This document shows positions 9,757 through 57,717 of a stretch of 64,000 nt of DNA, piece after piece. The notes below the pieces were generated by a model. It was not told the origin of the DNA. It was given only the letters and a program-made list of their open reading frames with translations, and did no database searches. A program made the position numbers and the translations under genes. Positions within the stretch are counted from its first letter, which is position 1. The number at the start of each line of letters is the position of its first letter. The stretch spans positions 1,803,205 through 1,867,204 of the forward strand of contig CP054178.1 in assembly GCA_015709595.1 (NCBI GenBank), written 5' to 3'. The DNA is from Phycisphaeraceae bacterium (GTDB lineage: Bacteria > Planctomycetota > Phycisphaerae > Phycisphaerales > SM1A02).

Positions 9757-11364
9757 ATGTCGAGGTTGCTCGGCTCGCTTTCACTCTCAACCGTGCTGGC
9801 TGCGGTGCTGCTCGCTTCGCCGGCTTCATCCGCTCAGGACGTGGCGGGGCTTGATCGGGGGGACGAGGTCAACGCCCTGCTGGGCCTGACGGACAGCGTC
9901 GTGTTCACGCTGGACATCAACACCGAACCGGGCGTGCCGCTGGTGGCGGCGATTCCGCTGGAGGGCCAGTGGCGTCTGCTCAATCTCTTTCCGCACTCCG
10001 TGCGCGGGCGACGCTACCAGGTGCTCGCCCAGGTGGGCGAAGGCGAACTGGTGCCGGTGACGCCCTCGCCTGAGCGCACCCTGCGCGGCGAACTGCTGGA
10101 CGACCCGCAGATCATGGCGGCTGGCTCCACCTCTGACGAGGGGCTGTACGCCCGGATCATCCTGCCCGACGGATCGAACTACTGGATCGAGCCGCTCTTC
10201 GGACGCATCCAGGGCGCGCCGCATGGCTCGCACGTCATCTACCGGGGCGAGGACACCTCCTGCTCCGGCATCTGCGGCACATCCGACGATCATCGCCTGG
10301 GCGGCGACCTCGACCTGGTCGAGCACGGCTCCGGCGGCGACGGCGCGCTCAAGGTGGCCGAGGTCGCCTGCGACGCCGACGTGGAGTACTTCACCCGCTG
10401 GGGCAGCGTGGCCAACGTGGAGAGCCGCATCAACAGCATCTTCAACTCCATGAACATCCAGTACGAGCGCGATGTCAACATCACGCACGTCATCACCACC
10501 ATCATCGTGCGCACGGTCGAGCCGGACCCGTACAGCACCACCAACTCCGGCGCCCTTCTGGACCAGTTCCGCAACCACTGGAACGCCAATCACGGCGCCA
10601 TCCAGCGCGACGTGGCCCACCTCTTCACCGGCAAGAACCTCAACGGCTCGGTCATCGGCATCGCCTACGTGGGCGTGATCTGCAACACCCCCTGGGCCTA
10701 CGGACTGGTGGAATCGCTCAACAACTTCGCCTGCGCCACCGACCTGTCGGCTCACGAACTGGGGCACAACTGGAACGCCGACCACTGCGTGTGCGAGACC
10801 TACACCATGCACGCGGGGCTTCAGTGCGCCAACCGCTTCCACCCCACCTTCGACATTCCGGTCATCACCCAGTTCCGCGACTCGCGCGGCTGCCTGAGCG
10901 ACCCCGAGCCGGAGGATCTGGACTGCCCGCTCAAGAGCTTCAACATCACCAAGGGCACGCTGAACAGCGGCAACCTGGCTGCGCTGGACAACTCCGATGA
11001 CAACTACATGATCATCGACCCGCTGCAGGGCAACAACTACGCGGTCAACATGGTGGTCAAACTCACCAGCCCGATCAACAACGTGTCGCAACTGGACCTG
11101 ACGCTCGAAACCAGCGCCATCAACCCCAACGTGCGAACCAAGATCTACGTTCGCAACGTGAACACCAACGCCTGGGTGCTGCTGGATTCGTTCATCCAGC
11201 CGCAGACGGACACGGTCAAGACCTACCTGTCGATTCCCAACCCCAACAACTACATCAAGGCCACGAACAGGGAAATCCAGATCCGGATTCAGATGACGCG
11301 AAAGCTCACCGCCGGCACCTTCATTACGCTGATCGACAACGTGCAGGCCACGGTTCGCGATTGA
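9757..11364 (+). CDS. Secreted zinc metalloprotease, reprolysin (M12B)-like
   Basis: The 535-residue precursor has a signal peptide (LSTVLAAVLLASPASSAQD). A propeptide-like region of about 180 residues precedes the catalytic domain. The zinc site HELGHNWNADH at residues 333-343 gives the HExxHxxxxxH pattern of metzincins, followed by Cys-rich CVCETYTMHAG. The arrangement and the upstream segment with the NVESRINSIFNSMNIQYERD region resemble adamalysin/reprolysin-type peptidases of bacteria. The C-terminal 150 residues look like a beta-sandwich. ATG 9757 follows CAGGAGAT. It is a single-gene unit ending in a strong terminator hairpin. Confidence 0.82.
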   Translation: MSRLLGSLSLSTVLAAVLLASPASSAQDVAGLDRGDEVNALLGLTDSVVFTLDINTEPGVPLVAAIPLEGQWRLLNLFPHSVRGRRYQVLAQVGEGELVPVTPSPERTLRGELLDDPQIMAAGSTSDEGLYARIILPDGSNYWIEPLFGRIQGAPHGSHVIYRGEDTSCSGICGTSDDHRLGGDLDLVEHGSGGDGALKVAEVACDADVEYFTRWGSVANVESRINSIFNSMNIQYERDVNITHVITTIIVRTVEPDPYSTTNSGALLDQFRNHWNANHGAIQRDVAHLFTGKNLNGSVIGIAYVGVICNTPWAYGLVESLNNFACATDLSAHELGHNWNADHCVCETYTMHAGLQCANRFHPTFDIPVITQFRDSRGCLSDPEPEDLDCPLKSFNITKGTLNSGNLAALDNSDDNYMIIDPLQGNNYAVNMVVKLTSPINNVSQLDLTLETSAINPNVRTKIYVRNVNTNAWVLLDSFIQPQTDTVKTYLSIPNPNNYIKATNREIQIRIQMTRKLTAGTFITLIDNVQATVRD

Positions 11365-46365: not shown

Positions 46366-47346
46366 ATGAGCCGAACGTTCACCCAGCCCGCGCCGCTCGT
46401 GCGACCATCCCGACAGGCGATGGAAGCGCGCCTGGCGGAGCTGGAAGCCGAACGCGAGGCGCTGGCGAAGCAGAAGCGGCGCAACATCCTGTTCATGGGC
46501 GCGGCCATCTCGCTCATGGTCCACCTGGCCATCCTGCTCTACCTGGAGACGGTCAAGCGGCTGGGACCGGGAGGCGACGGACCGGGCGAGGTGATCGTCG
46601 AGTTCGCCGTGCTCCCCCAGCAGGATCTGTCGGAGCTTGAACTGGTCGAAATCCAGGACTCAGACGCCAGCTCCGACCTGAACCTGGAGGAAGCCGACCC
46701 CGCGCTGGAACTGGACGTGAAGCCCCCCGCCGCGGAGCTGCTGGCGCTCAACGACGGGTCGATGCCCTCGCTGGGCGCGGGCGGGTCGAGTTCGGGCGAC
46801 ATGTCGATGGGCGGCGGCGGCGCCGGGGCGAGCTTCTTCGGCGTCTCGTCCACCGGCCAGCGCTTTCTCTTCATCGTGGACGTATCCGGCTCGATGCAGG
46901 AAGGCAACCGCATTCACGTGGCCATGCGCGAACTGTCGCGGTCGATCTCGGAACTGCCCGACTTCGCGTACTTCTACGTCATCCTGTACAACCACGAGCC
47001 GATCATTCCGCGCTTTCAGAGGGGATGGCAGCGCGCCCGCCCACGCGAGGTGGACGACATGCTCGACTACCTGCGCAACGTCACGCCCGGCGGGGGAACC
47101 GTACCCGTGGGCGCGTTCGCCGCGGCCTTCGCCCTTGACGTGCCCCCGGACGTCATCTTCTTCCTCACCGACGGGCTGATCCCGCAGGAGACGCCCGATC
47201 GGGTCCGCTCGATGAACGCTCGCGGCAAGCGCGTGGTCATCAACACCATCGCCTTCGGCGATCAGTCGTCCGCCGACCTGCTCAAGCGGATTTCGGACGA
47301 ATCCGGCGGGCGATACCGCTTCGTCCCCGTGCGCGGAGGTGGGTGA
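46366..47346 (+). CDS. TonB-like single-span protein with C-terminal von Willebrand A domain
   Basis: The 326-residue protein has a cytoplasmic N-terminus with a short coiled coil (MEARLAELEAEREALAKQK), then one membrane span at about 42-61. The span reads AAISLMVHLAILLYLE; S49xxxH53 is the same Ser-x3-His motif found in the span of TonB and TolA, where it couples to ExbB-ExbD or TolQ-TolR. An acidic and Gly/Ser-rich periplasmic linker follows (about 75-155). The rest is a VWA domain with MIDAS DVSGSMQEG at 172, a Thr in GGGTVPVG and FFLTDGLIP. No TonB C-terminal domain is present. The gene heads a cluster with ExbB and two ExbDs. I infer that it is the force-transmitting arm of that motor, with VWA as output. 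Confidence 0.78.
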   Translation: MSRTFTQPAPLVRPSRQAMEARLAELEAEREALAKQKRRNILFMGAAISLMVHLAILLYLETVKRLGPGGDGPGEVIVEFAVLPQQDLSELELVEIQDSDASSDLNLEEADPALELDVKPPAAELLALNDGSMPSLGAGGSSSGDMSMGGGGAGASFFGVSSTGQRFLFIVDVSGSMQEGNRIHVAMRELSRSISELPDFAYFYVILYNHEPIIPRFQRGWQRARPREVDDMLDYLRNVTPGGGTVPVGAFAAAFALDVPPDVIFFLTDGLIPQETPDRVRSMNARGKRVVINTIAFGDQSSADLLKRISDESGGRYRFVPVRGGG

Positions 47347-47349
47347 CTC

Positions 47350-48558
47350 GTGCGCCTCGTCACGATGGTCATGCTGCTGTTGACGGCGTCTGCGCCAGTG
47401 TTGGCGGCGGGCGGCGGGTCGGCGGCGGGAGGCGCCCGGTGCTCCGTCGTCGGTTGTCAGTTGCTGGCGGGCGTCGTGATTGCAGCCCGCCATCCTCAGC
47501 CCTTGGTCCTCGCCTCTCCCGACGCCGTGTTCCGGCGCGGGTCGGAGTCCACGCTCACCGGCGCGGTGCAGCAGGTGGATGACAACGGCGTGACGATCCG
47601 GAGCGACCTGGGGGCCGTTCACGTCGTCCCGTGGGATCGGGTGCGGCGCGTCGTCACGGACAACCCGGATCGCGATTCGATGATCGCGCGGCACATGGAG
47701 CACGCCGCCGCGCTCTGGCGGGCGCGATCGCGCGTGGAGCGGATGGACGTGACGCTGGCCGAGCCGCTGTTCGAGCGGCTCTTTGAGCAGTATCGCGGGT
47801 CCACGCACGAGACCGCGCTGGTGACGGCGGAAGGGCTGCTGCGTTGCCGCCTGGCGCGCGGGGCGCACACGCTGGCGATCATTCCGGCGCTGGAGGTGAT
47901 GCGCCTGCGCCGCGCCGGGGTGAGGACGGAGTCGTACGCCGCTCTTCCCCCGGTGTACGACGAGGCGATGGGGCTGTGTCCGGCCCTGGCGCCGGTGTGG
48001 TTCGAATCGCCCGCGCTGCGCCGCGTGGAGCAGGAACTGCGCGAGTACGTCGCCCCGGGCGACGAGGTCACCGCGGCGGTCGCCTGGCTCTACGCCGAGT
48101 CGGTGCGCCGGGCCCTGGGCGTCGCGGACGGCCCGCCCCCGCCTGGCGCGTGGCCGGAGGGCGAGGGGGTGCGCCTGCTCATCGACCTGCTGGCCTGCGG
48201 CGAGGCGGATTCCAACCGTCGTGAAAAGGCCCGCGACGACCTGCTGCGCCGGGAATCGTCGCTGCCCGGCTTCGCCCGCGCCTGGGCCCGGTTCCACGTG
48301 GGCTGGTCGCTGCTCCGCGAGTCGGGGGTGGTGCGCCAGCAGCGGGGCATGCTGTCGCTCCTGCACGTGCCGGCGGCGCATGGTTCATCCCAGCCGTACC
48401 TGGCCGGTATCGCCCTGTCGCTGGTGGCCGGCGCGCTGGAGCAGTCCGGTTCGCGCGAGCCCGCCGCCATGCTTCGAGGCGAGCTGGACGCCCGGTTTCC
48501 GTTTCATCCCGTGCGCACGGCCCGGCCCGCGCCGGTGACCGCGCCGCCACGGACGTAA
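47350..48558 (+). CDS. Secreted protein of unknown function in the ExbBD cluster
   Basis: This 402-residue protein begins three bases after the VWA stop with GTG 47350. It has a signal peptide (LVTMVMLLLTASAPVLAAGGG). Next comes a small beta-rich domain (about 70-105, STLTGAVQQVDDNGVTIRSD, then VPWDRVRRVV), which resembles the short Sm-like or SH3-like region seen in many planctomycete exported proteins. A helical region of about 280 residues without recognisable motif follows. The Pro-rich end suggests disorder. By position it is periplasmic and likely to contact the VWA protein or the helical-repeat protein of the cluster. No function can be assigned. Confidence 0.68.
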   Translation: MRLVTMVMLLLTASAPVLAAGGGSAAGGARCSVVGCQLLAGVVIAARHPQPLVLASPDAVFRRGSESTLTGAVQQVDDNGVTIRSDLGAVHVVPWDRVRRVVTDNPDRDSMIARHMEHAAALWRARSRVERMDVTLAEPLFERLFEQYRGSTHETALVTAEGLLRCRLARGAHTLAIIPALEVMRLRRAGVRTESYAALPPVYDEAMGLCPALAPVWFESPALRRVEQELREYVAPGDEVTAAVAWLYAESVRRALGVADGPPPPGAWPEGEGVRLLIDLLACGEADSNRREKARDDLLRRESSLPGFARAWARFHVGWSLLRESGVVRQQRGMLSLLHVPAAHGSSQPYLAGIALSLVAGALEQSGSREPAAMLRGELDARFPFHPVRTARPAPVTAPPRT

Positions 48559-48567
48559 GGAGTTCGG

Positions 48568-49362
48568 ATGACGACGTTTCAACAGGCCGCCCTGCTGCTC
48601 GCCACTCCGTCCGGGGAAGGCGGTGAATCGCTGCTCGATCTCGTTCAGAAGGGTGGGGTGATCGCCTACATCATTCTGGCTCTCAGCGTGGGCGCGCTGG
48701 TGCTGATCATCTTCCACCTGGTGCAGATCCGGCGTGCCGCCCTGCTGCCGCCGGAGCAACTTGACCAGGTGGATCACCTGCTGGCGCGAGGCGACGCCAG
48801 CGCGGCCCTGGCGTACGTCGCCGATCCGGCGAATGACTCGTACTTCGCGCGCATCATGACGGTTGGGCTGACGCGATTCCAGAAATCCGCCTTCGGCGCC
48901 TTCGAGATCAAGAGCGCCATCGAGGAGGCGGGCGAGGAGCAGACCGCTCGCCTGTACCGATCGACCGACGCGCTGCAGGTCATCGGGGCCATCGCGCCGC
49001 TGCTGGGGCTGCTGGGCACGGTGCAGGGCATGGTGGGTGCGTTCTCCACGCTCTCCAAGAGCGCCGCGACCAAGCCCGAGCTCCTCGCCAACGACATCTC
49101 ACTGGCCCTCATCACCACGCTCATGGGGCTGACGCTGGCGATCCCCTGCATCGCGCTCTTCACGTTCTTCCGCAACCGCATCGACGCCTTCGCCGCCGAG
49201 GCCGGGCGCGAGATCGAGCGGATGATCCTGCATCTGGAATCGGCGGCCCCGGCGCCGACCGGGGCCCCGGCCCGTCCGGCGCCCGTGCCGACGGGCGGTC
49301 CGGCGCGGCCCGTGAGGCCCGCCGCGGGTCCGGCGCCCGCGCCCGGAGCGCCAGCGCGATGA
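48568..49362 (+). CDS. ExbB/TolQ/MotA-family proton channel subunit
   Basis: The 264-residue protein has an N-terminal amphipathic part, span 1 (GGVIAYIILALSVGALVLIIFHLV), a cytoplasmic loop, and the hallmark paired spans IAPLLGLLGTVQGMVGAF and ALITTLMGLTLAIPCIALF. Thr residues of the third span are kept, but the Glu that normally precedes it (GIAEALL in E. coli ExbB) corresponds to DISLALI here, a Leu. The C-terminal 45 residues are Pro/Ala repeats. An AAGGAG site precedes ATG 48568, and the stop overlaps the first exbD gene (ATGA). It should pump or conduct protons with the two ExbDs and drive the VWA protein. Confidence 0.88.
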   Translation: MTTFQQAALLLATPSGEGGESLLDLVQKGGVIAYIILALSVGALVLIIFHLVQIRRAALLPPEQLDQVDHLLARGDASAALAYVADPANDSYFARIMTVGLTRFQKSAFGAFEIKSAIEEAGEEQTARLYRSTDALQVIGAIAPLLGLLGTVQGMVGAFSTLSKSAATKPELLANDISLALITTLMGLTLAIPCIALFTFFRNRIDAFAAEAGREIERMILHLESAAPAPTGAPARPAPVPTGGPARPVRPAAGPAPAPGAPAR

Positions 49363-49787
49363 GGTTCTCGCCGCACGGCCATCGTGACCGGGCGCTCCAC
49401 ATCGACCTCACGTCGATGGTGGACGTGGTCTTTCTGCTCATCATCTTCTTCCTCACCACCACGCAGTTCGCGCGCATGACCCGCGCCGATGTGGAGCTGC
49501 CCGTCGAGCCGGGCGAGCAGCAGCCCGAGCCGGACGAGCCGGGCATCGTCATCAACCTGCTGCACGACGGGTCGATCGTGGTGGATGACGAGACGCTCGA
49601 CCTCGAGGGGCTGCGGTCGCTCATCCGCGCCGAGATCACCGGTTCGCAGCGGGGCCGGGCCGACAAGGTGAAACTCATGCTGCGGGCCGACCGTCGCCTG
49701 CCCGCGGCGCGGCTCAACCAGGTGGTGAAACTGCTGCAGGACATGGGCGTCGGACTGGGTCGGTTCGCCACCGAGCAGCCGCGCTAG
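49359..49787 (+). CDS. ExbD/TolR-family protein, first copy
   Basis: The 142-residue protein has the single N-terminal span with the essential proton-carrying Asp22 (IDLTSMVDVVFLLIIFFLTT, corresponding to Asp25 of E. coli ExbD). A periplasmic domain follows with the usual strand-helix pattern (GIVINLLHDGSIVVDDETL, VKLMLRADRRLPAARLNQVV). Overlap with exbB and 9-base spacing to the second exbD indicate a shared message and stoichiometric synthesis. Confidence 0.9.
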   Translation: MRFSPHGHRDRALHIDLTSMVDVVFLLIIFFLTTTQFARMTRADVELPVEPGEQQPEPDEPGIVINLLHDGSIVVDDETLDLEGLRSLIRAEITGSQRGRADKVKLMLRADRRLPAARLNQVVKLLQDMGVGLGRFATEQPR

Positions 49788-49796
49788 GAGTCGATC

Positions 49797-50219
49797 GTGC
49801 GCATCCAGGTCAGGCCATCCCGTCGGCGGCCCACGCTGCTGGTGCTCAACCTCGCCAGCATGATCGACGTGACATTCCTGCTGCTGATCTACTTCATGCT
49901 CACGATGGTGTTCACCAAGCCGGAGGATCGGCTCTCCTCGGCCCTGCGCGCCAAGACCGAGGCCGCCTCGGGAAGCACGAGCGATTTTCAGCCGCAGGTG
50001 GTGGACGTGATCGTGACGGACGGCGCGCCGGCGTACCGGCTGGGGGCTCGGCTCTTCCGCGACAAGGCGTCGCTCACCGCGGCGCTGGAGCCGCTCAACA
50101 AGGCCACGGGGCTGTTCATCAGGGTCAGCAACGAGCCCCCCACGGGGTTCGTGCTGGCCGCGTTCCAGGCCGGGCACGATGCCGGCTTCGAGAAGGTGAC
50201 CTATGTCGCGGTGGAGTGA
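49797..50219 (+). CDS. ExbD/TolR-family protein, second copy
   Basis: The second ExbD, 140 residues, starts with GTG 49797 after a GGAG site. Its span reads LASMIDVTFLLLIYFMLTM with Asp24. The periplasmic domain differs clearly from the first copy (VVDVIVTDGAPAYRLGARLF, LFIRVSNEPPTGFVLAAF), so the two are diverged paralogues rather than a recent duplication. Tandem unlike ExbDs occur in other planctomycete and Myxococcus clusters and may form a heterodimer in the ExbB pore. The next gene overlaps its end by 17 bases. Confidence 0.88.
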   Translation: MRIQVRPSRRRPTLLVLNLASMIDVTFLLLIYFMLTMVFTKPEDRLSSALRAKTEAASGSTSDFQPQVVDVIVTDGAPAYRLGARLFRDKASLTAALEPLNKATGLFIRVSNEPPTGFVLAAFQAGHDAGFEKVTYVAVE

Positions 50220-52857
50220 CAGATCGGCGATCGGCGGCTGGCTGTTGGGTGTTGGCTGCCGACTCGCCGCCGCGCTGTTTCTCTGTCTGACTGCTTCGTC
50301 CGCGCTGGCGGCGCCGGACGACGTGGCGGCGTACCTGGAGCGCCACGGACTCAAGCATCTGCTCGCCCTGCACCTGCGCGAGCGCCTCGACAAGGCGCCC
50401 GCGGAGGAACGCGACGCCGTCGCCGTGCGGCTCGCCGAGCTGTACGCCGAACTGCTGGAGACGACGGATGATGCGGCGGTGCGGCTCGACCTGGAGAACC
50501 GCGCCCGCGAGCTGCTCTCGCTTGTTCCCGCGGAGAGCGCGGATGAACTGCGGCTGTCCCTGCTGCGGGGGGGCTACGTGGCCGCCGAGAAGATCGCCGA
50601 GAACCACCGGCTGCGGCTTTCCACGCCCGAGGACGTGGCCCGCGCGATGGAGATGCTGCGCGACCTCGTCCCCAAGTTCGCCTCGCTGCGATCGGCGCTC
50701 AAGGACAAGCAGGACACCACCGAGCGCCGCCTGCACCGCGCCACCGGCGCGCAGGCCGCCCTGCTGACGCAGGAGCATGACCGGGCGCGTCGTCTGACGG
50801 CGCGATGCACCTTCCTGTCCGCGTGGTCCCACTACTACCTGGCGTGGCTCGAGGGCAAGCCCGATCACGCGCGGCTGGGTTTCGACCTGTTCGCCTCGGT
50901 CATCGACCCCGAACTCAAGCGGTTGACGGTGGAGGACGTGTCGCGCGATCTGCTGGGCGTGGAGCCGATGGCGCGGTCGGTGCTGGGGCTGGCCCTGTGC
51001 CGCTCCATCACGCATGGCCCCGATGAGGCCCTGCGCTGGCTGGCGCTGCTGGAGCAGGAGGCGGCGCACGAGCAGCTGCGTTCCATGGCGCCGGCGTGGC
51101 GTCTGGCCATCCTGCTCGATCACCGCGACTTCCGCCGCGTCCGCCAGTTGCTGGAGATGGAGCGCACCGAGGGGCGCGAGATGCCGCTGGTGTGGGTGCG
51201 TCTGGCGGCGGCGCACGGGCTTGAGAATGCGTCGCGCGATCCCGAGGCCGCCGATCTGGCGAGGCAGTCGATCGCCGAACTGGCGGCGCGGGGCGAACTG
51301 CAGCAGGTGCTGGACCTGGCCGACCGGTACGGGGTGGATTCGATGGGCGACGCCGGGTTCGCCATCCTCTACGTGCGCGGCGCCCGCGCCTACAAGCAGG
51401 CCCGCGACCTGCACGGCGACGAATCCCCCACCTCGCGTTCCGACGTGGTCGCTCTCTACGCCCAGGCGTCGGGCCTGCTGCAGGACGCCCAGCGCCAGCC
51501 GGACGCCTCGCGTTTTCCCGTGGCCGCGGCGGGAGCGCAGTCGCTCATCGGCTGGTGCCTGTATTTCCAGGGTCGATTCCTCGACGCGCGACAGGCGTTC
51601 GAGCACGCGGCGGGACTGCTCCCGCCGGCGGAGGCCGCCGAGGCGCTGTGGATGGCCATTGTGTCGCTGGATCGCGTGGTGCGGGCCAGGCCCAACGCCG
51701 CGCTCGAGGCCGACCTGCAGGGCATGATCAAGGCGTTCCGCGAGCGGTTTCCCTCCAGCGAGTACACGCCCCGGCTGGTGCTGCGCGGGGCGGACGTGAC
51801 GCAGGGCGAGCCCACGCCCGAACTGGTGGCGGAACTGCTGGCGATTCCACCAGGCAGTCCGGATTACGACGCCGCCCGACGTCGCGCCGAGCAGATGCTG
51901 TACACGCTCTATCAGTCCGCCGCGGGCGATCGTCGCGTGGAGTGGGCCGATCGGTACCTGCAGGCGGCGCTGCCGATGCTGCTGGCGGTTTCGCCCGACG
52001 CGCTGCGCGAGGGGCTCGAAGCGTCCGAGCCGTTCCTGGTGCGATCCCGGCGCGTGCTGGAGGTGTCGCTGGCGCCGGGCGTCGAGCAGCCCCGCGTCGC
52101 CGAGGCGATGCTGGCCCGCCTGGATGAACTGGCCGCCGCAGGCGCGATCGACGTGTCGCCCGTGCAGGATGAGCTGGAGTACCGTCGTCTCCGCGTAGCC
52201 ATGCTCAGCGGGCTGATCGACCCGGCGCGGGCCATCGCCGAGCGTCTCTGGTCGCGCGACGAGGATTCCCCGTGGGCGCAGTCGGCGGCGCGGGCCATGT
52301 TCAAGCACGCGGTGGACACGTGGCGGTCCATCCCGCCCGCCTTGCTGGCGAGCGATCCCCAGGCGCCCGGAGTCCTGATCCAGGTGGTCACGTGGGGCGG
52401 CCGCGCCCTGCACGAGTACGAGGATCGCGCCAACGCGCTGGACGATCCGTCGGTGCTCAGCGCCTACGCCGTGGTGGCCGAGGCGGCCCACGCGCTGTGG
52501 GATCTCACGCAGGAGAAGCAGCAGGGTGAGCGGGCGCTCTTCCTGTACGAGAAAGTGCTGGAGGCGAAGCCCACCAGCGCGGCGTTCCTTCGCGCCGTGG
52601 GCGTGCTGGCCGAGTCGTTCGGCAAGCCGGAGCGGTCCATCGAGTGCTGGCGTCGTCTGTCCGTGGGACTGCCGCCTGATACCGATGGCTGGTACGAGGC
52701 CAAGTATCACCTGATCCGTCTGCTGTCGTCCTCGGATCCGGCGCGCGCCCGCGAGGTCATGGATCAGCACAAGGCGCTCTATCCTGAGTACGGACCGGCC
52801 CCGTGGCGCCAGCGGATGGAGGAACTCGATCGGCGGCTTCGCGGGGACGAGGAATGA
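50203..52857 (+). CDS. Large exported helical-repeat (TPR-like) protein in the ExbBD cluster
   Basis: The 884-residue precursor has a signal peptide (GVGCRLAAALFLCLTASSALAA). It is almost entirely alpha-helical, with TPR-like segments such as AQSLIGWCLYFQGRFLDARQAFEHAAGLLP and ERALFLYEKVLEAKPTSAAFLRAVGVLAESFGKPERSIECWRRL. TPR superhelices bind proteins, so this is a plausible periplasmic scaffold for the cluster. ATG 50203 lies inside the second exbD gene; the first dozen residues come from repeat-like DNA common in this genome. No enzymatic motif is visible. Confidence 0.75.
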   Translation: MSRWSDRSAIGGWLLGVGCRLAAALFLCLTASSALAAPDDVAAYLERHGLKHLLALHLRERLDKAPAEERDAVAVRLAELYAELLETTDDAAVRLDLENRARELLSLVPAESADELRLSLLRGGYVAAEKIAENHRLRLSTPEDVARAMEMLRDLVPKFASLRSALKDKQDTTERRLHRATGAQAALLTQEHDRARRLTARCTFLSAWSHYYLAWLEGKPDHARLGFDLFASVIDPELKRLTVEDVSRDLLGVEPMARSVLGLALCRSITHGPDEALRWLALLEQEAAHEQLRSMAPAWRLAILLDHRDFRRVRQLLEMERTEGREMPLVWVRLAAAHGLENASRDPEAADLARQSIAELAARGELQQVLDLADRYGVDSMGDAGFAILYVRGARAYKQARDLHGDESPTSRSDVVALYAQASGLLQDAQRQPDASRFPVAAAGAQSLIGWCLYFQGRFLDARQAFEHAAGLLPPAEAAEALWMAIVSLDRVVRARPNAALEADLQGMIKAFRERFPSSEYTPRLVLRGADVTQGEPTPELVAELLAIPPGSPDYDAARRRAEQMLYTLYQSAAGDRRVEWADRYLQAALPMLLAVSPDALREGLEASEPFLVRSRRVLEVSLAPGVEQPRVAEAMLARLDELAAAGAIDVSPVQDELEYRRLRVAMLSGLIDPARAIAERLWSRDEDSPWAQSAARAMFKHAVDTWRSIPPALLASDPQAPGVLIQVVTWGGRALHEYEDRANALDDPSVLSAYAVVAEAAHALWDLTQEKQQGERALFLYEKVLEAKPTSAAFLRAVGVLAESFGKPERSIECWRRLSVGLPPDTDGWYEAKYHLIRLLSSSDPARAREVMDQHKALYPEYGPAPWRQRMEELDRRLRGDEE

Positions 52858-52967
52858 ACGTGAGGACCGAGTGACGCCTTCGCGCGTCGGGCGGTCCGAA
52901 CCCGCCAGGCCCGCCAGTCAAGCCATCCCCGGAACCGATCACCGAGAACCGTCAACCTGCCACTCCC

Positions 52968-55900
52968 ATGTCCGATCCGCTTCACAAGTTTCTCGGCGTC
53001 ACCGGCGGCACGGATGCCTTCCGTCTGCTGGCGCTGACGCCCGGCCAGCGCCATCCGTTGGCGGTGCAGCGGTCGCTCGAGGCGCAGCTGGCGCGGGTGA
53101 ATCGTCACCCGGAGAATGGCTCGCCCGAGGCCGCGATGGTGCGCCAGTGCCTGCTCGAGGCGGCAAGGCAGATCCGCGAAGGCGACCCCGCGGCGCTCAC
53201 GCCGCGCACGATCTACTACGTCAGGCCGGGAGAGGGGGAAGGCCGTCAACCATCAGCCGTCAGCCGTCAGCCGCCGCCCGCATCGGGTCGTCCATCCGGG
53301 CCGTTGGGCGGCGCGTCGCCGGCTCGTGCCGCTCCGCCGCCGGTATCGTCCCGTCGCGCCGCGGCGCCGGTCGGCGGGATTGCCCCGGCGCCCATGTCGG
53401 GCGCGCCGGGACCATCCGTCGCCTCGCGTCCGGCGGGCGCGCCGGCGCCGCCCGTTCACCCGAGCTACCCGGCGCGACGCACGAGTCCGCCGCGCCGCGC
53501 GCCGGGGCTTGACCTGACGCCCTTCGACCGCTGCGTGCTGGCCATGCTCATCGCGTACGGCGGGTGGAACGCCGCGAGCCGCGCCAAGCTGGTGGCGATG
53601 GCGGCGTCGCACGGCGTCTCGCCCCAGGGTCTGATGAAGGTCGTCACGGGCCTGACATCCCAGGCGCGTCACGCGGGTCGCCGCATCGACGTGGCGCAGG
53701 TGACGCAGGGCGCGGCGCGATTCGTCGATCCCGGCGCGACGGTCGATCGCGCCGCCGCGCCCCAGCCGGAATGGGCCGACAGTATGCTTCCCGAACTGCG
53801 GGGCGGCGGCGCGTGGGCCACCTTCAAACTCTCGATCCTCTTCGGCGCCGTCACGCTGCTCATGGGCGTGCTGTTCGTCCGCATGCTGATGCAGCCCGAC
53901 CCGCGAAGCGTCGCCGTGCTCCCGCCGGACGGGAACTCGACGCCCGGCGTCGTTACTCCGGGCGGCGCGTCCGGACCTGGCGGGGGGGGCGCGGGGGGCG
54001 TGGGGGGGGCGGGCGGCGCGACGCCCGCGGCTCCCGGTGGAAGCCAGGGCGGCGCGGCGACGGGCTCGCCCCGGCTCGTGCCGTGGTCCAATCCCCCGAC
54101 GTTTCGCGGCGACACCAGGCCGCGCATCGTCGCCGACGCCCTCGATCAGAGTCCGCGCCTGCCCGCGATCTTCGATCAACTGGGGCGGCAACTGACGGTG
54201 GTCGCCACCCCCTCGCGGGCGGCGCTGGTGGATTGGCGTTTCGCCAATGACCAGATCGGACTGTGCTGGCCCGTCGTGGAGCAGCCGCTGCTTGATGCGG
54301 TGCGCGGAGATTTCTTCGAGGTGCTCTTCGCCGTGTCCGACCGGCCCACGGTGGTGACGGATCTGGTCTCAACGCTGGCGGCGCAGGCGGGCAAACTCGA
54401 GGAGCCCGCCGACGTGTGGCGCGGAGCGTGGGCGGCGGGCATGCTCGGGGCCGTTCTGGCCCGCTCCGACGCGCCCGCGGTGCTGCGCGACGAGGCGCGG
54501 CGCGTGCTCGAACAATCCGTCGGCGACGCCCTGCGCGACGACCTGCCCACCTTCGATCTGGCGGCGGCGGCCTGGCTCGATCGGGCGGCGACGCGGCTGG
54601 TGTCGATCACCGAGATCGACCGGCGATCGCCCGACTTCTGGGAGTTCTGGCTGGCGGCCCAGTCGCGCGTGGGCACGCGGGCGCGGTTCGACGCCGCGAT
54701 GATCGCCGCCATCGGCGAGGTGCTGCGCTCCAGCATCGATCTGGCCCGCGACGGTCCGACGGTCAACGTGCTGGGGCGGCTCGTGGAGGAAGCCGACTTC
54801 CGCGATCCGCGCTCCGTGGGCGGCGCCGCCGGGGGGCACGGCATCGGCGCGGTGCGCGAAGGATTCCTGGGCTTCTTCAGCGACCCGCAGGTGACCTCGC
54901 GCGACCTGTGGGCGCTGGGGTCGCTGCTGGCGGCGCGCCCCGGACTGCGATGGTACGGCGAGGATCTCATCGTGCCCGATGGCGCCGAGACGCCCCAGCG
55001 CCTGGCGCTGATGCGGCTGGTCGAACGCCGCTGGCCAAGTCCGTCGGGAACGGGCGGTGACCCGTCGGGGCGGACCATCGCGGGGACGCGCATCGTGGTC
55101 AACCCCGCCCTGGGCGAGCGGTGGCGCGGACTGGCCCAGGCCCAGTTCGACGACCTGGCCGCGCTGCGCCAGCCGGTGGAGCAGACGCCCGAGCGATACC
55201 TGCGCCGGCTGGTGCTGGCGGCCTGGCTCAACGAAGCCGCCGCGGCGCTGGCGACCCGCGACGAGCAGCAGGCGCACGACCTGCTGCGCCGCCTCGAGGT
55301 CGGCTGGCAGGCGACCACGTCAGGCGGCTCCGGCGCCGCGGGCGGCGGGGTTCCGATCACGCCTCCCCCCGGGTCGCCCCCGCCTCCAACGCCCCCGCGC
55401 GGACCCGGCGGAGTACCCATCGTGCCCATCGGCGGGGGCGGTTCGGGCGGAGGCGTCCCGCTGCAGCCGGGCTCGCCCTCGGGCGTCGATGGTCAGTGGA
55501 AGCAGGCCTACGACCAGGCGATCCGCAACAACGAGGAGCGGATGAACCTGCTCCGTTCGCTGCGCAACGTGACCTCGGGTGATCTGGGTCCGATTGACGC
55601 CCGCGCGTTCGTGCTCGAGGTCTACCGCGCCGGCGTGCCGGAGATTCGCGCCTTCGCCCAGGCGATCCTGCTGGAAATGTTCTCCGCGGGCCCCAACGTG
55701 GCCATCGCGCTGGTCGATCTCTTCCCCGACGCCCAGGCGCGTGATTCGACCTCCGAGCTGATCAGTTCGCTTTCCGGGCGTCTGCTGCCCTCGGTGCGGT
55801 CGTCATCGTGGAAGCGCGAGGCGCGGTTGGCGCTGGTGACGCACGCCCTGCGCCTCCTGCCCACCACGGCCAACGAGATCGACGAGGCGGCCAACGTGAT

Positions 55901-57224
55901 CGCCCGATCGTGGGCGGCGCAGGCGGGGTGGCTCAAGCCGGACCTGGGTCGAACGCGCGCCGACGGACGCGACCCGTCGCCCTCGGAGGCGGTGGATCGA
56001 CTGCTCGCCGCCTGGCGCGCCCTGGCGGGCGGGATGGTGGTGTCGCGTCCGATTCCGGACGTGCCCGCGGCGCTGGAGCGCCGCCATGAGACGCGCCTGC
56101 TGCTGGCGGAAGGGCCGATCGAGCGCTCGATCGCCTCGCAGGTCACCATCCTCGAACATCTCGCCTTCGTGGTGGCGGGCGAACAGCCGATCCTGGCGGA
56201 TGACGTGCTCAAGGTGCTCGGCGACTGCGCCCGCGCCCGACGCGACGCGGTTCATGTGCTGGAGCAGGCGATCCAGGTCGAGGCGGCGCAGGCCAGGTTG
56301 TGGTCGTTGCGACTGTCGATCCCCGAGGCGGGGGGGAGCGGCGGGCGTCAGTCGGCGCTGGACGCGGGGGAGCGAAGGCATCGAGGCATCGAGGCGTCGA
56401 CGCATCGAGGAGTGGAAGCGTCGATTGATCAAGGGGCGCCGCGGTGGGCGTCGCGGACTCGACCCGCCATCCTCGATCCTCAATCCTCGATCCTCATTGC
56501 GTTCTCTTCCGATCCGCCCGACTGGACGCCTCGCCTCGAGGCCCTCACGCCGCGTCGTCCGGAGCAGTACTTTGACCTGGCGGAGGAGGTTGCCGACGCC
56601 GCGGGAGCGGGTGATGAAGCCGCGCTCGGCCTGGCGAGGCATCTGTTCCGGCTGGCGGGCGTGCTGGACCCCGATCGACTGGGACGCGGCGCGTGCCTGG
56701 CCCTGGCGGACCTGGAGCGTGATCCCGCCGAGCGTCGTCGGCTGCTGGCGTTGGCCACGCTGCTGAACCGTCGTTCGGGCGAACCGAACTGGCTGCCGTC
56801 GCAGTCGTCGGCGTCGGATGATGACTTCGCGGCGGCGGTGGCGCTGGCCGACGCCTTCAGCCACTACCGCAGCGGGTATGGCTCGCGGGCGGAGGCGGCG
56901 CTGAACGCCGCCGCCGGGGCGCGCGACCTGCTGCGGACTCATGAGCACGTGGTGGGTGGCGAGCGCCGCTTCCTCGAAAACCTGCGCGCGTATCGCAGCG
57001 GGCAATCGCCCGTGCGTTCCCGCGCGGAAGTCATCGACATGCTGCGGCTCGAAGCCGCCCTGCTCGCCGGCGAAGGGCGGACGTGGTCGGGCGATCTGAT
57101 GCTCAGTCGCGGACGGACGCTGGTGGAGGTCGATCCGGAGCGGCTCGCCGAGGCGCTGGGCGTGGACGCCTCGCGCCCGCTGTATCGGCAGGGTCGCTGG
57201 GTGTTCGCGGAAGGTCGCGAGTAG
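52968..57224 (+). CDS. 1418-residue single-span protein, probable envelope scaffold of the ExbBD cluster
   Basis: I do not recognise a family. The N-terminal 75 residues form a small helical domain that could resemble a J-like fold (AFRLLALTPGQRHPLAVQRS). After a Pro/Ala-rich linker a second helical domain lies at about 185-265 (FDRCVLAMLIAYGGWNAASR). A single membrane span (FGAVTLLMGVLFVRML) is at about 285-305, so about 1100 residues would lie in the periplasm. These comprise Gly/Pro-rich linkers (about 331-365, 785-840) and several helical domains. A segment around 1125-1180 is translated repeat-like DNA (56350-56490). It is 110 bases downstream of the helical-repeat gene. It may connect the motor to the cell wall or outer membrane. 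Confidence 0.7.
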   Translation: MSDPLHKFLGVTGGTDAFRLLALTPGQRHPLAVQRSLEAQLARVNRHPENGSPEAAMVRQCLLEAARQIREGDPAALTPRTIYYVRPGEGEGRQPSAVSRQPPPASGRPSGPLGGASPARAAPPPVSSRRAAAPVGGIAPAPMSGAPGPSVASRPAGAPAPPVHPSYPARRTSPPRRAPGLDLTPFDRCVLAMLIAYGGWNAASRAKLVAMAASHGVSPQGLMKVVTGLTSQARHAGRRIDVAQVTQGAARFVDPGATVDRAAAPQPEWADSMLPELRGGGAWATFKLSILFGAVTLLMGVLFVRMLMQPDPRSVAVLPPDGNSTPGVVTPGGASGPGGGGAGGVGGAGGATPAAPGGSQGGAATGSPRLVPWSNPPTFRGDTRPRIVADALDQSPRLPAIFDQLGRQLTVVATPSRAALVDWRFANDQIGLCWPVVEQPLLDAVRGDFFEVLFAVSDRPTVVTDLVSTLAAQAGKLEEPADVWRGAWAAGMLGAVLARSDAPAVLRDEARRVLEQSVGDALRDDLPTFDLAAAAWLDRAATRLVSITEIDRRSPDFWEFWLAAQSRVGTRARFDAAMIAAIGEVLRSSIDLARDGPTVNVLGRLVEEADFRDPRSVGGAAGGHGIGAVREGFLGFFSDPQVTSRDLWALGSLLAARPGLRWYGEDLIVPDGAETPQRLALMRLVERRWPSPSGTGGDPSGRTIAGTRIVVNPALGERWRGLAQAQFDDLAALRQPVEQTPERYLRRLVLAAWLNEAAAALATRDEQQAHDLLRRLEVGWQATTSGGSGAAGGGVPITPPPGSPPPPTPPRGPGGVPIVPIGGGGSGGGVPLQPGSPSGVDGQWKQAYDQAIRNNEERMNLLRSLRNVTSGDLGPIDARAFVLEVYRAGVPEIRAFAQAILLEMFSAGPNVAIALVDLFPDAQARDSTSELISSLSGRLLPSVRSSSWKREARLALVTHALRLLPTTANEIDEAANVIARSWAAQAGWLKPDLGRTRADGRDPSPSEAVDRLLAAWRALAGGMVVSRPIPDVPAALERRHETRLLLAEGPIERSIASQVTILEHLAFVVAGEQPILADDVLKVLGDCARARRDAVHVLEQAIQVEAAQARLWSLRLSIPEAGGSGGRQSALDAGERRHRGIEASTHRGVEASIDQGAPRWASRTRPAILDPQSSILIAFSSDPPDWTPRLEALTPRRPEQYFDLAEEVADAAGAGDEAALGLARHLFRLAGVLDPDRLGRGACLALADLERDPAERRRLLALATLLNRRSGEPNWLPSQSSASDDDFAAAVALADAFSHYRSGYGSRAEAALNAAAGARDLLRTHEHVVGGERRFLENLRAYRSGQSPVRSRAEVIDMLRLEAALLAGEGRTWSGDLMLSRGRTLVEVDPERLAEALGVDASRPLYRQGRWVFAEGRE

Positions 57225-57246: not shown

Positions 57247-57717
57247 TTACGTCACCCGTGACTGCGAGCGGGAAAACGCCACCTGCTCCCGCGCCAGCGC
57301 GGCCACCTCGTGAAGCAGCGTTTCGCTGGTGATCGACCACATGCCCCATTCCGTGTCGAACGGCTCGGCGGCAAGCTCCAGCCCTTCACGCAGCGCCCTC
57401 CGCAGCCGACGCACCAGCACCGAGCGCACGAACGCCTGCTGCACCGGCACCGCCACCTGGAGGTCGGAGGGATTGGGAATGATGATCGCCGCGACGCGAC
57501 CCAGGTCCGGCGCGTGGTAGGCGAACGTCCAGCGCCAGCAGGCGCCCTGCCAGGCGATGCGTTCCTCCAAGCCGGGGATGTCCGCCAGTCGCTGCCGCGC
57601 CTGCTCCAGCAGCGAGGCGTGGGGCGAAGGAAGCGGCGCGCGGAGCATCCGATCCGTCGGTCGGTTGAACCGGTCGGCCCACGGGAGCCGTTCGTACTGG
57701 TGCCGCGCGCGAACCAT
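57247..57717 (-). CDS. Conserved hypothetical protein
   Basis: The 156-residue protein has no signal peptide. The central segment ERIAWQGACWRWTFAYHAPD followed by GRVAAIIIPNPSDLQVAVPV resembles the Trp-rich core of DUF3788-like proteins, but the match is loose. A C-terminal helical region contains several Arg pairs (RRLRRALREGL). It is convergent with the large cluster protein and divergent from the response regulator. Function is unknown. Confidence 0.6.
   Translation of the reverse strand: MVRARHQYERLPWADRFNRPTDRMLRAPLPSPHASLLEQARQRLADIPGLEERIAWQGACWRWTFAYHAPDLGRVAAIIIPNPSDLQVAVPVQQAFVRSVLVRRLRRALREGLELAAEPFDTEWGMWSITSETLLHEVAALAREQVAFSRSQSRVT

Follow-up and report, generated by a model that had tools for sequence, protein, structure and literature searches.

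A seven-gene VWA and ExbB-ExbD-ExbD cluster from a Phycisphaeraceae bacterium that probably encodes a trans-envelope force transducer

What might seven tightly packed genes, one for a protein with a VWA domain and three for the parts of an ExbB-ExbD-ExbD motor, do together in a planctomycete? The cluster occupies positions 46366–57224 (+ strand) of the 64,000-nucleotide stretch of DNA analysed here (contig CP054178.1, positions 1,803,205 to 1,867,204; hereafter ‘the window’), and lies at 1.85 Mb in the single-contig, 3.84 Mb genome of a Phycisphaeraceae bacterium (GCA_015709595.1). Its closest named relatives by ExbB are two Phycisphaeraceae/Phycisphaerales metagenome-assembled genomes (L007 and L008). 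Our reading, drawn from sequence and its conservation, is that the cluster probably codes for a vWA-type force transducer that acts across the envelope and is powered by the proton motive force.

The VWA arm and its motor across relatives

Seven open reading frames (ORFs) are present, starting at 46366, 47350, 48568, 49359, 49797, 50203 and 52968, the first (VWA) with ATG and those at 47350 and 49797 with GTG. In order, they encode the VWA arm (46366–47346; Pfam VWA_3, 1e-10), a 402-residue protein predicted by eye to be secreted (SEC402, 47350–48558), an ExbB/TolQ-type motor subunit (48568–49362; MotA_ExbB, 5e-27), two ExbDs (ExbD1, 49359–49787, ExbD family, 1e-22; ExbD2, 49797–50219, 2e-10), an 884-residue TPR-type helical repeat protein also predicted by eye to be secreted (TPR884, 50203–52857; a weak Pfam TPR match) and a 1418-residue protein, gene 7, ending at 57224; the 402- and 1418-residue proteins matched no Pfam family over cut-off. 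Recomputed gaps of 3, 9, −4 (ATGA), 9, −17 and 110 bases bore out the seven genes and every spacing given in a first-pass annotation of this sequence, which had regarded the genes as a single unit.

Synteny upholds that view. A search for ExbB in the 248 genomes of the class gave a match in 220 (at 1e-15), and up to 20 kb was fetched around the best-ranking matches in 38 other genomes (L066–L103), giving, with L007 and L008, 40 loci that were searched with the seven window proteins. All seven genes were found in the same order in 23/40; contig ends cut four others (L008, L069, L074 and L079), each of which holds every gene that fits, and the remaining 13 showed a reduced gene set. Among the 29 loci L066–L094, which belong to the same family or order (families f1, f2 and f5) and were picked for the highest-ranking ExbBs, 22 were full, three were cut by contig ends and four were reduced (L078, L089, L090 and L094), with SEC402 recovered in L078, and weakly in L090, by a later profile search. 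Outside the order, L095 and L096 keep VWA-ExbB-ExbD-ExbD-TPR, and L097–L100 and L103 keep the VWA and motor genes; gene 7 was not detected in L095–L103. A complete seven-gene set was also found outside the class, in L106 (G362, family f89), among 20 stretches read. The neighbourhood proposed in the first-pass annotation thus recurs in f1, f2, f5 and beyond the class and, because it recurs across relatives, gene order is not a matter of chance.

The full set is nonetheless not universal in the order, since six stretches from families f3 and f4 (L102, L122, L124, L125, L144 and L146) held a motor without VWA, a paralogous (type B, below) operon or a lone VWA gene, with no SEC402 or gene 7 match. 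More widely, an arm profile matched 227/248 genomes of the class at 1e-15, not all of these matches having been checked as arms, and 130/149 genomes of the phylum at 1e-12, where the weaker matches were mostly to the VWA domain only. Five genomes of family f66 with 99–100% completeness (G294, G314, G331, G348 and G363) had no VWA-arm match at 1e-12, a possible natural loss. Among 27 non-close loci (L009–L035, many from Akkermansia, some cut by contig ends) a VWA match was found only in L009, and it was without Ser-x3-His.

The VWA protein comprises a short N-terminus, one membrane helix (46489–46551), a linker of ~100 residues and a C-terminal VWA domain (46867–47322). In an alignment of 32 arms, from which L078, L082, L100 and L103 among the 35 VWA matches were left out, 17 columns were invariant, including Ser49 and His53 in the membrane helix. 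Also invariant were Asp172, Ser174, Ser176, Thr245 and Asp269 of the VWA domain, which we take to be its complete metal site (metal ion-dependent adhesion site, MIDAS). A Ser-x3-His pair of the TonB/TolA SHLS type lay within the hydrophobic stretch of the arm in 33/35 relatives, against 6/479 of the other six-frame ORFs in which a segment is strongly hydrophobic, not all of them real genes; the exceptions were L100, a fragment beginning near the VWA domain, and L078 (genome G237), in which His is replaced by Asn. The pair was kept in 27/31 further VWA arms (exceptions L009, L113, L117 and L125). According to the available text of a cryo-electron microscopy study, TonB Ser16 and His20 of Escherichia coli touch ExbB Ser34 and Trp38, and contact of the Ser-His pair with ExbB has been demonstrated for both the Ton and the Tol system of this species (PMC12215075). 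By these sequence features the VWA protein is a predicted TonB/TolA-type arm, as the first-pass annotation had held when it proposed a VWA-bearing arm on an ExbB-ExbD-ExbD motor.

The motor itself is well conserved. The ExbB pore threonines T151 and T184 were invariant (43/43 rows), S40, at the Ser34 position, was kept in 41/43 and P193, at the Pro190 position, in 42/43, while the membrane aspartate was present in 40/40 ExbD1 rows (Asp22) and 39/39 ExbD2 rows (Asp24); these row sets were the best match per locus, paralogues included. That two different ExbDs both keep the aspartate suggests that they would form a heterodimer.

Arm and motor were scored as adjacent when an ExbB lay downstream on the same strand at no more than 3.5 kb, comparing 150 VWA rows with 150 ExbB rows among the matches listed. 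On this basis an ExbB lay downstream of 86/150 VWA rows: 82 of the 125 of arm length, and 4 of the 25 that matched in the domain only. Where the genome had a listed ExbB, the figure for arm-length rows was 82/97. The VWA-ExbB gap (n = 86) was at least 850 bases in 70 cases, in which a SEC402-like gene would fit, and less than 500 in 16. Far from lying apart from ExbB in most relatives, then, the arm gene usually precedes it, and the system view of the first-pass annotation stands. In an uneven selection of 100 VWA rows ExbB was adjacent in 85, and the 15 misses were read at the locus: five have a motor alongside (G021, G030, G031, G050 and G060), with an ExbB that was not among the matches listed, three run into a contig end (G142, G161 and G228) and seven have no motor alongside (G015, G078, G166, G137, G090, G102 and G113), the G137 miss being a domain-only match.

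Several observations weigh against the reading of the cluster as a motor-driven transducer. Arms were found in G015, G078 and G166 with no motor gene in the stretch read, and ExbB and ExbD genes are missing from the clusters of G102, G090 and G113 (L148, L149 and L150); G102 has an ExbB-ExbD-ExbD set on a different contig (L094), and G090 and G113 show only weak ExbB matches (6e-25 and 3e-22). Conversely, L101 and L102 carry ExbB-ExbD-ExbD without a VWA gene. As to docking, the arm of G237 with Asn in place of His has a counterpart in the same genus, G161, in which no Ser-x3-His was found; most arms lack the Leu and the final Ser of SHLS (S-x3-H-x6-L in 15/32 arms, full SHLS in 1/32); and the ExbB position matched by eye to E. 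coli Trp38 is Trp in only 1/43 rows. The motor-less clusters cut both ways, however: the motor can leave, and the arm and its partners remain joined, since VWA, SEC402, TPR and gene 7 are still grouped in L148, L149 and L150, where the arm retains Ser-x3-His.

These clusters also bear on the alternative that the genes are neighbours without any functional link. The absence of motor genes from the cluster in three genomes speaks for it, as the motor can evidently separate, but it is hard to reconcile with an order kept, with overlapping genes, in f1, f2, f5 and outside the class, with the other four genes remaining together where the motor is gone, or with a motor phylogeny that tracks operon type (below), and we regard it as scarcely credible.

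Paralogous operons and partner proteins

The window's genome holds a second, paralogous VWA operon (type B; L105:6111-13158, − strand, ~1.65 Mb) with genes for a VWA arm, a TPR-bearing protein, ExbB, two ExbDs and a TPR protein. Gene 7 was not seen in it, and its TPR-bearing protein resembles the SEC402 layout by eye, although the SEC402 profile gives no match. All six type B arms from f1 and f2 (L105, L133, L134, L137, L139 and L140) retain Ser-His, whereas in their metal site Thr has become Ser and Asp is replaced; type B arms in other families keep Asp (L122, L124, L144 and L146), and some keep both Thr and Asp. In an ExbB tree of 65 rows the operon types formed groups: a single change was enough for type A (31 rows) and for type C (4 rows), and three for type B (16 rows), in every case fewer than in any of 500 shuffles. 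The eight rows from VWA loci beyond the order required four changes, some of these rows falling with type B and others elsewhere. The tree was made by a quick method and has some long branches, with support of 78 for the type A grouping. Because the ExbB tree groups in this way, it appears that motors follow arm type rather than genome.

A third ExbB-ExbD operon in the same genome (L104:3815-9711, − strand, ~1.27 Mb) has a downstream gene for a 1513-residue protein in which a PD40 beta-propeller and a membrane helix bearing Ser-x3-His-x6-Leu are joined by a long linker to two further domains, one squalene-cyclase-like (alpha/alpha) and one of the CarboxypepD_reg family. Relatives of this protein stand beside ExbB-ExbD, with Ser-x3-His at the matching helix, in L135, L142 and L143 (of which only L143 is cut by a contig end), and a protein with a related C-terminal domain and Ser-x3-His occurs in L110. 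Its sequence suggests a further arm of the TonB type that carries an end domain of another kind; a literature search on arms of this kind found nothing.

Three proteins accompany the arm and motor. SEC402 has an N-terminal hydrophobic stretch, and a structure model built from three sequences shows a small beta region (strands at 71–94) followed by helices, at low confidence (mean predicted local distance difference test score, pLDDT, of 65); its fold matches were weak and of TPR type. The TPR884 profile matched TPR structures down to 7e-27. A simple scan for a lipobox pattern found it in 0/27 SEC402 and 1/29 TPR proteins, the latter doubtful, and by this criterion neither protein resembles a lipoprotein. 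Neither SEC402 (25-row alignment) nor gene 7 matched any family over cut-off in Pfam, NCBIfam, PADLOC or PDB sequences.

The first-pass annotation had described the product of gene 7 as a single giant protein. Its 1418-residue ORF is indeed present, but not as a single gene: by comparison with relatives it is an in-frame fusion of two genes, 7a (52968–56330) and 7b (56487–57224). Most of the relatives that match the second (phmmer, residues 1166–1418) have it as a small ORF by itself, and in L068, L087 and L088 it shares a frame with 7a. The junction (56331–56486) has seven further partial matches in the genome (77–96% identity, 25 to 62 bases), in the manner of short dispersed-repeat pieces. 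Gene 7a encodes a J-like N-terminus (52989–53192), a GGWN helical domain, one membrane span (residues 290–308, 53835–53891) and a large C-terminal part, with exactly one hydropathy span in 22/24 aligned rows. The N-terminal domain, modelled from L007 (mean pLDDT ~88 over residues 1–70), had J-domains at the top of its structural list, with Z of at most 8.6 over 70 residues, a value that can be common for helical models; no significant match was found with Foldseek (best E 1.6) or by sequence (E 0.55). The HPD motif reads HPE in the window and HPD in L007, with other letters in most other rows, so that stimulation of DnaK by this domain is unlikely, the Asp being mostly lost.

The operon is flanked upstream, on the opposite strand, by an amino-acid-kinase-family gene, presumably pyrH-like, and downstream by a convergent gene on the − strand (57247–57717) that is weakly DUF3788-like (0.034); L007 has a gene judged by eye to be similar at the matching place (10286-10819, −). 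As regards TonB and Tol, these two neighbours agree with the claim that the cluster adjoins no TonB, Tol or gliding gene, gliding genes not having been searched for. A promoter and terminator scan gave nothing above chance.

What the transducer may do

If the cluster encodes a vWA-type transducer, five ExbB subunits would surround one ExbD1 and one ExbD2, and proton flow through this complex would move the docked arm. With a linker of sufficient length to span the periplasm, the VWA domain may grip an acidic ligand through a metal ion, and could then pull or release it, or pass on a signal. SEC402, TPR884 and the membrane-tethered gene 7 product may be periplasmic adaptors or a scaffold of the arm, the co-encoded repeat proteins being the likeliest first partners of the VWA domain. 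The operon itself does not reveal what such a machine would finally act upon, whether outer membrane or cell wall; the distribution of Tol and Ton genes bears on this. TolB_N was matched in 4/248 genomes of the class (three over cut-off) and TonB_C in 95/248. In the window's genome there was no TolB_N match at E 0.001, the three OmpA matches all lie outside the operon, and the only TonB_C and Plug matches are ~3 kb apart (G000:C1:3422024-3425626), far from the operon, so that the genome has one classical Ton pair in addition to its VWA systems. The single-contig genome G032 carries the full operon (L083), and neither TonB_C nor TolB_N is listed for it; in genomes of this kind the candidate clients that can be seen for ExbB-ExbD are the VWA arms.

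The alternative that we rate highest, and still consider doubtful, is that the VWA machine stands in for Tol-Pal, pulling the outer membrane or a cell-wall layer during growth and division. The case is one of distribution: TolB_N in 4/248 genomes compares with the VWA profile in 227/248 and ExbB in 220/248, a TPR protein by the motor recalls CpoB of Tol-Pal, and the available text of one study calls Tol-Pal of Planctomycetes, like Lpt, largely reduced and reports it alongside loss of ftsZ in Planctomycetota (PMC8871954). Yet a lack of TolB is no proof that it has been replaced, not every one of the 227 profile matches was checked as an arm, the five near-complete f66 genomes lack a VWA match, no Pal-like or outer-membrane gene was recognised in the operon, and the lipobox scan of the SEC402 and TPR proteins was all but empty. 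A bolder form of the idea, rather speculative in our view, is that VWA-ExbB-ExbD1-ExbD2 would be the main trans-envelope transducer of the class, in which TolB is almost absent and TonB often so, and replace Tol-Pal, with a heterodimeric-ExbD motor and a metal-gated type A hand gripping repeat-protein scaffolds. Type B, in which the docking pair is kept and, among relatives of the window, the metal site is gone, would hold other ligands differently.

A Ton-like role, with the VWA domain acting on some outer-membrane transporter and energising uptake or export, would suit a TonB-type arm on an ExbBD-type motor in a genome that has one Plug-domain gene; it is unlikely, given that this gene lies ~3 kb from the genome's only TonB_C gene and far from the operon, that no transporter was recognised beside the operon and that VWA is unlike the TonB C-terminal domain. 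It is distinctly unlikely that the complex is a sensor rather than a puller, using the J-like domain of gene 7 to inform the cytoplasm of the state of the envelope: the domain precedes the single membrane span of gene 7a and so is likely to be on the cytoplasmic side, but with the Asp of HPD mostly lost it would hardly stimulate DnaK, and gene 7 was neither seen in the type B operon L105 nor detected in L095–L103. More improbable again is a motor for surface motility or adhesion in which VWA would act like gliding adhesins, a possibility raised in the available text of Williams-Jones et al. 2025 (PMC12204202), where the VWA domains of myxobacterial gliding are cited; the arm here is anchored in the inner membrane. 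Planctomycetota are short of several standard division and envelope genes, and a widespread proton-driven arm in a class almost without TolB would be a concrete candidate for powering work at their outer membrane. Types A and B share the docking pair and differ in whether the metal site survives, a contrast by which the part played by the VWA metal ion can be tested.

Comparison with known systems

The first-pass annotation had called the system undescribed, a claim that does not hold for its core. Williams-Jones et al. 2025 (PMC12204202), the only report of a VWA-motor core found in a literature search that covered few subscription papers and no preprints, describe, in the available text, vWA force transducers of Planctomycetes–Verrucomicrobia–Chlamydiae (PVC) bacteria, Planctomycetes among them, which have an SHLS motif, are encoded beside TPR, TolQ-like and two TolR-like genes, are predicted to dock by a conserved His and are of no known function. 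The arm described here resembles them in its SHLS-type helix, its VWA end domain and its linker (~100 residues here, disordered there), in the TPR, TolQ-like and two different TolR-like genes alongside and in its occurrence in the PVC group. It differs in gene order, with VWA first here and downstream of the TPR and motor genes there, and in having SEC402 and the J-like gene 7, which are absent from the text description of those transducers. The VWA-TolQ family of the same paper likewise couples a VWA domain to a TolQ-like motor, but is described there as without the SHLS residues and without TolR/ExbD, in contrast to the Ser-His pair and two ExbDs found here. VWA and Planctomycetes go unmentioned in the available text of PMC12905483, a review from 2026 on the Ton and Tol motors.

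Against the classical systems the likenesses are again partial. With Ton the operon shares the motor family, the arm topology and the Ser-x3-His docking pair, and from it the operon departs in a VWA end instead of TonB_C, two different ExbDs, an ExbB in which Trp38 is not kept and no TonB-dependent receptor alongside, the genome's only Plug match being at 3.42 Mb. With Tol-Pal it shares a TolQ/TolR-like motor, a TolA-like arm and a TPR protein in the operon, and differs by its VWA end domain, by the lack of TolB_N in the genome and by the lack of an OmpA/Pal match in the operon. Zorya defence was considered and rejected, PADLOC giving for the seven proteins one weak ZorA match to ExbB (0.0058) and nothing else at E 1. 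Beyond the core, four things appear to be new: the enlarged operon with SEC402 and the J-like gene 7, relative to the text description of vWA force transducers; the three genomes that keep arm and partners without motor genes; the paralogous operon in which, among relatives of the window, the VWA metal site has decayed; and the occurrence of the whole in a class with TolB_N in only 4/248 genomes.

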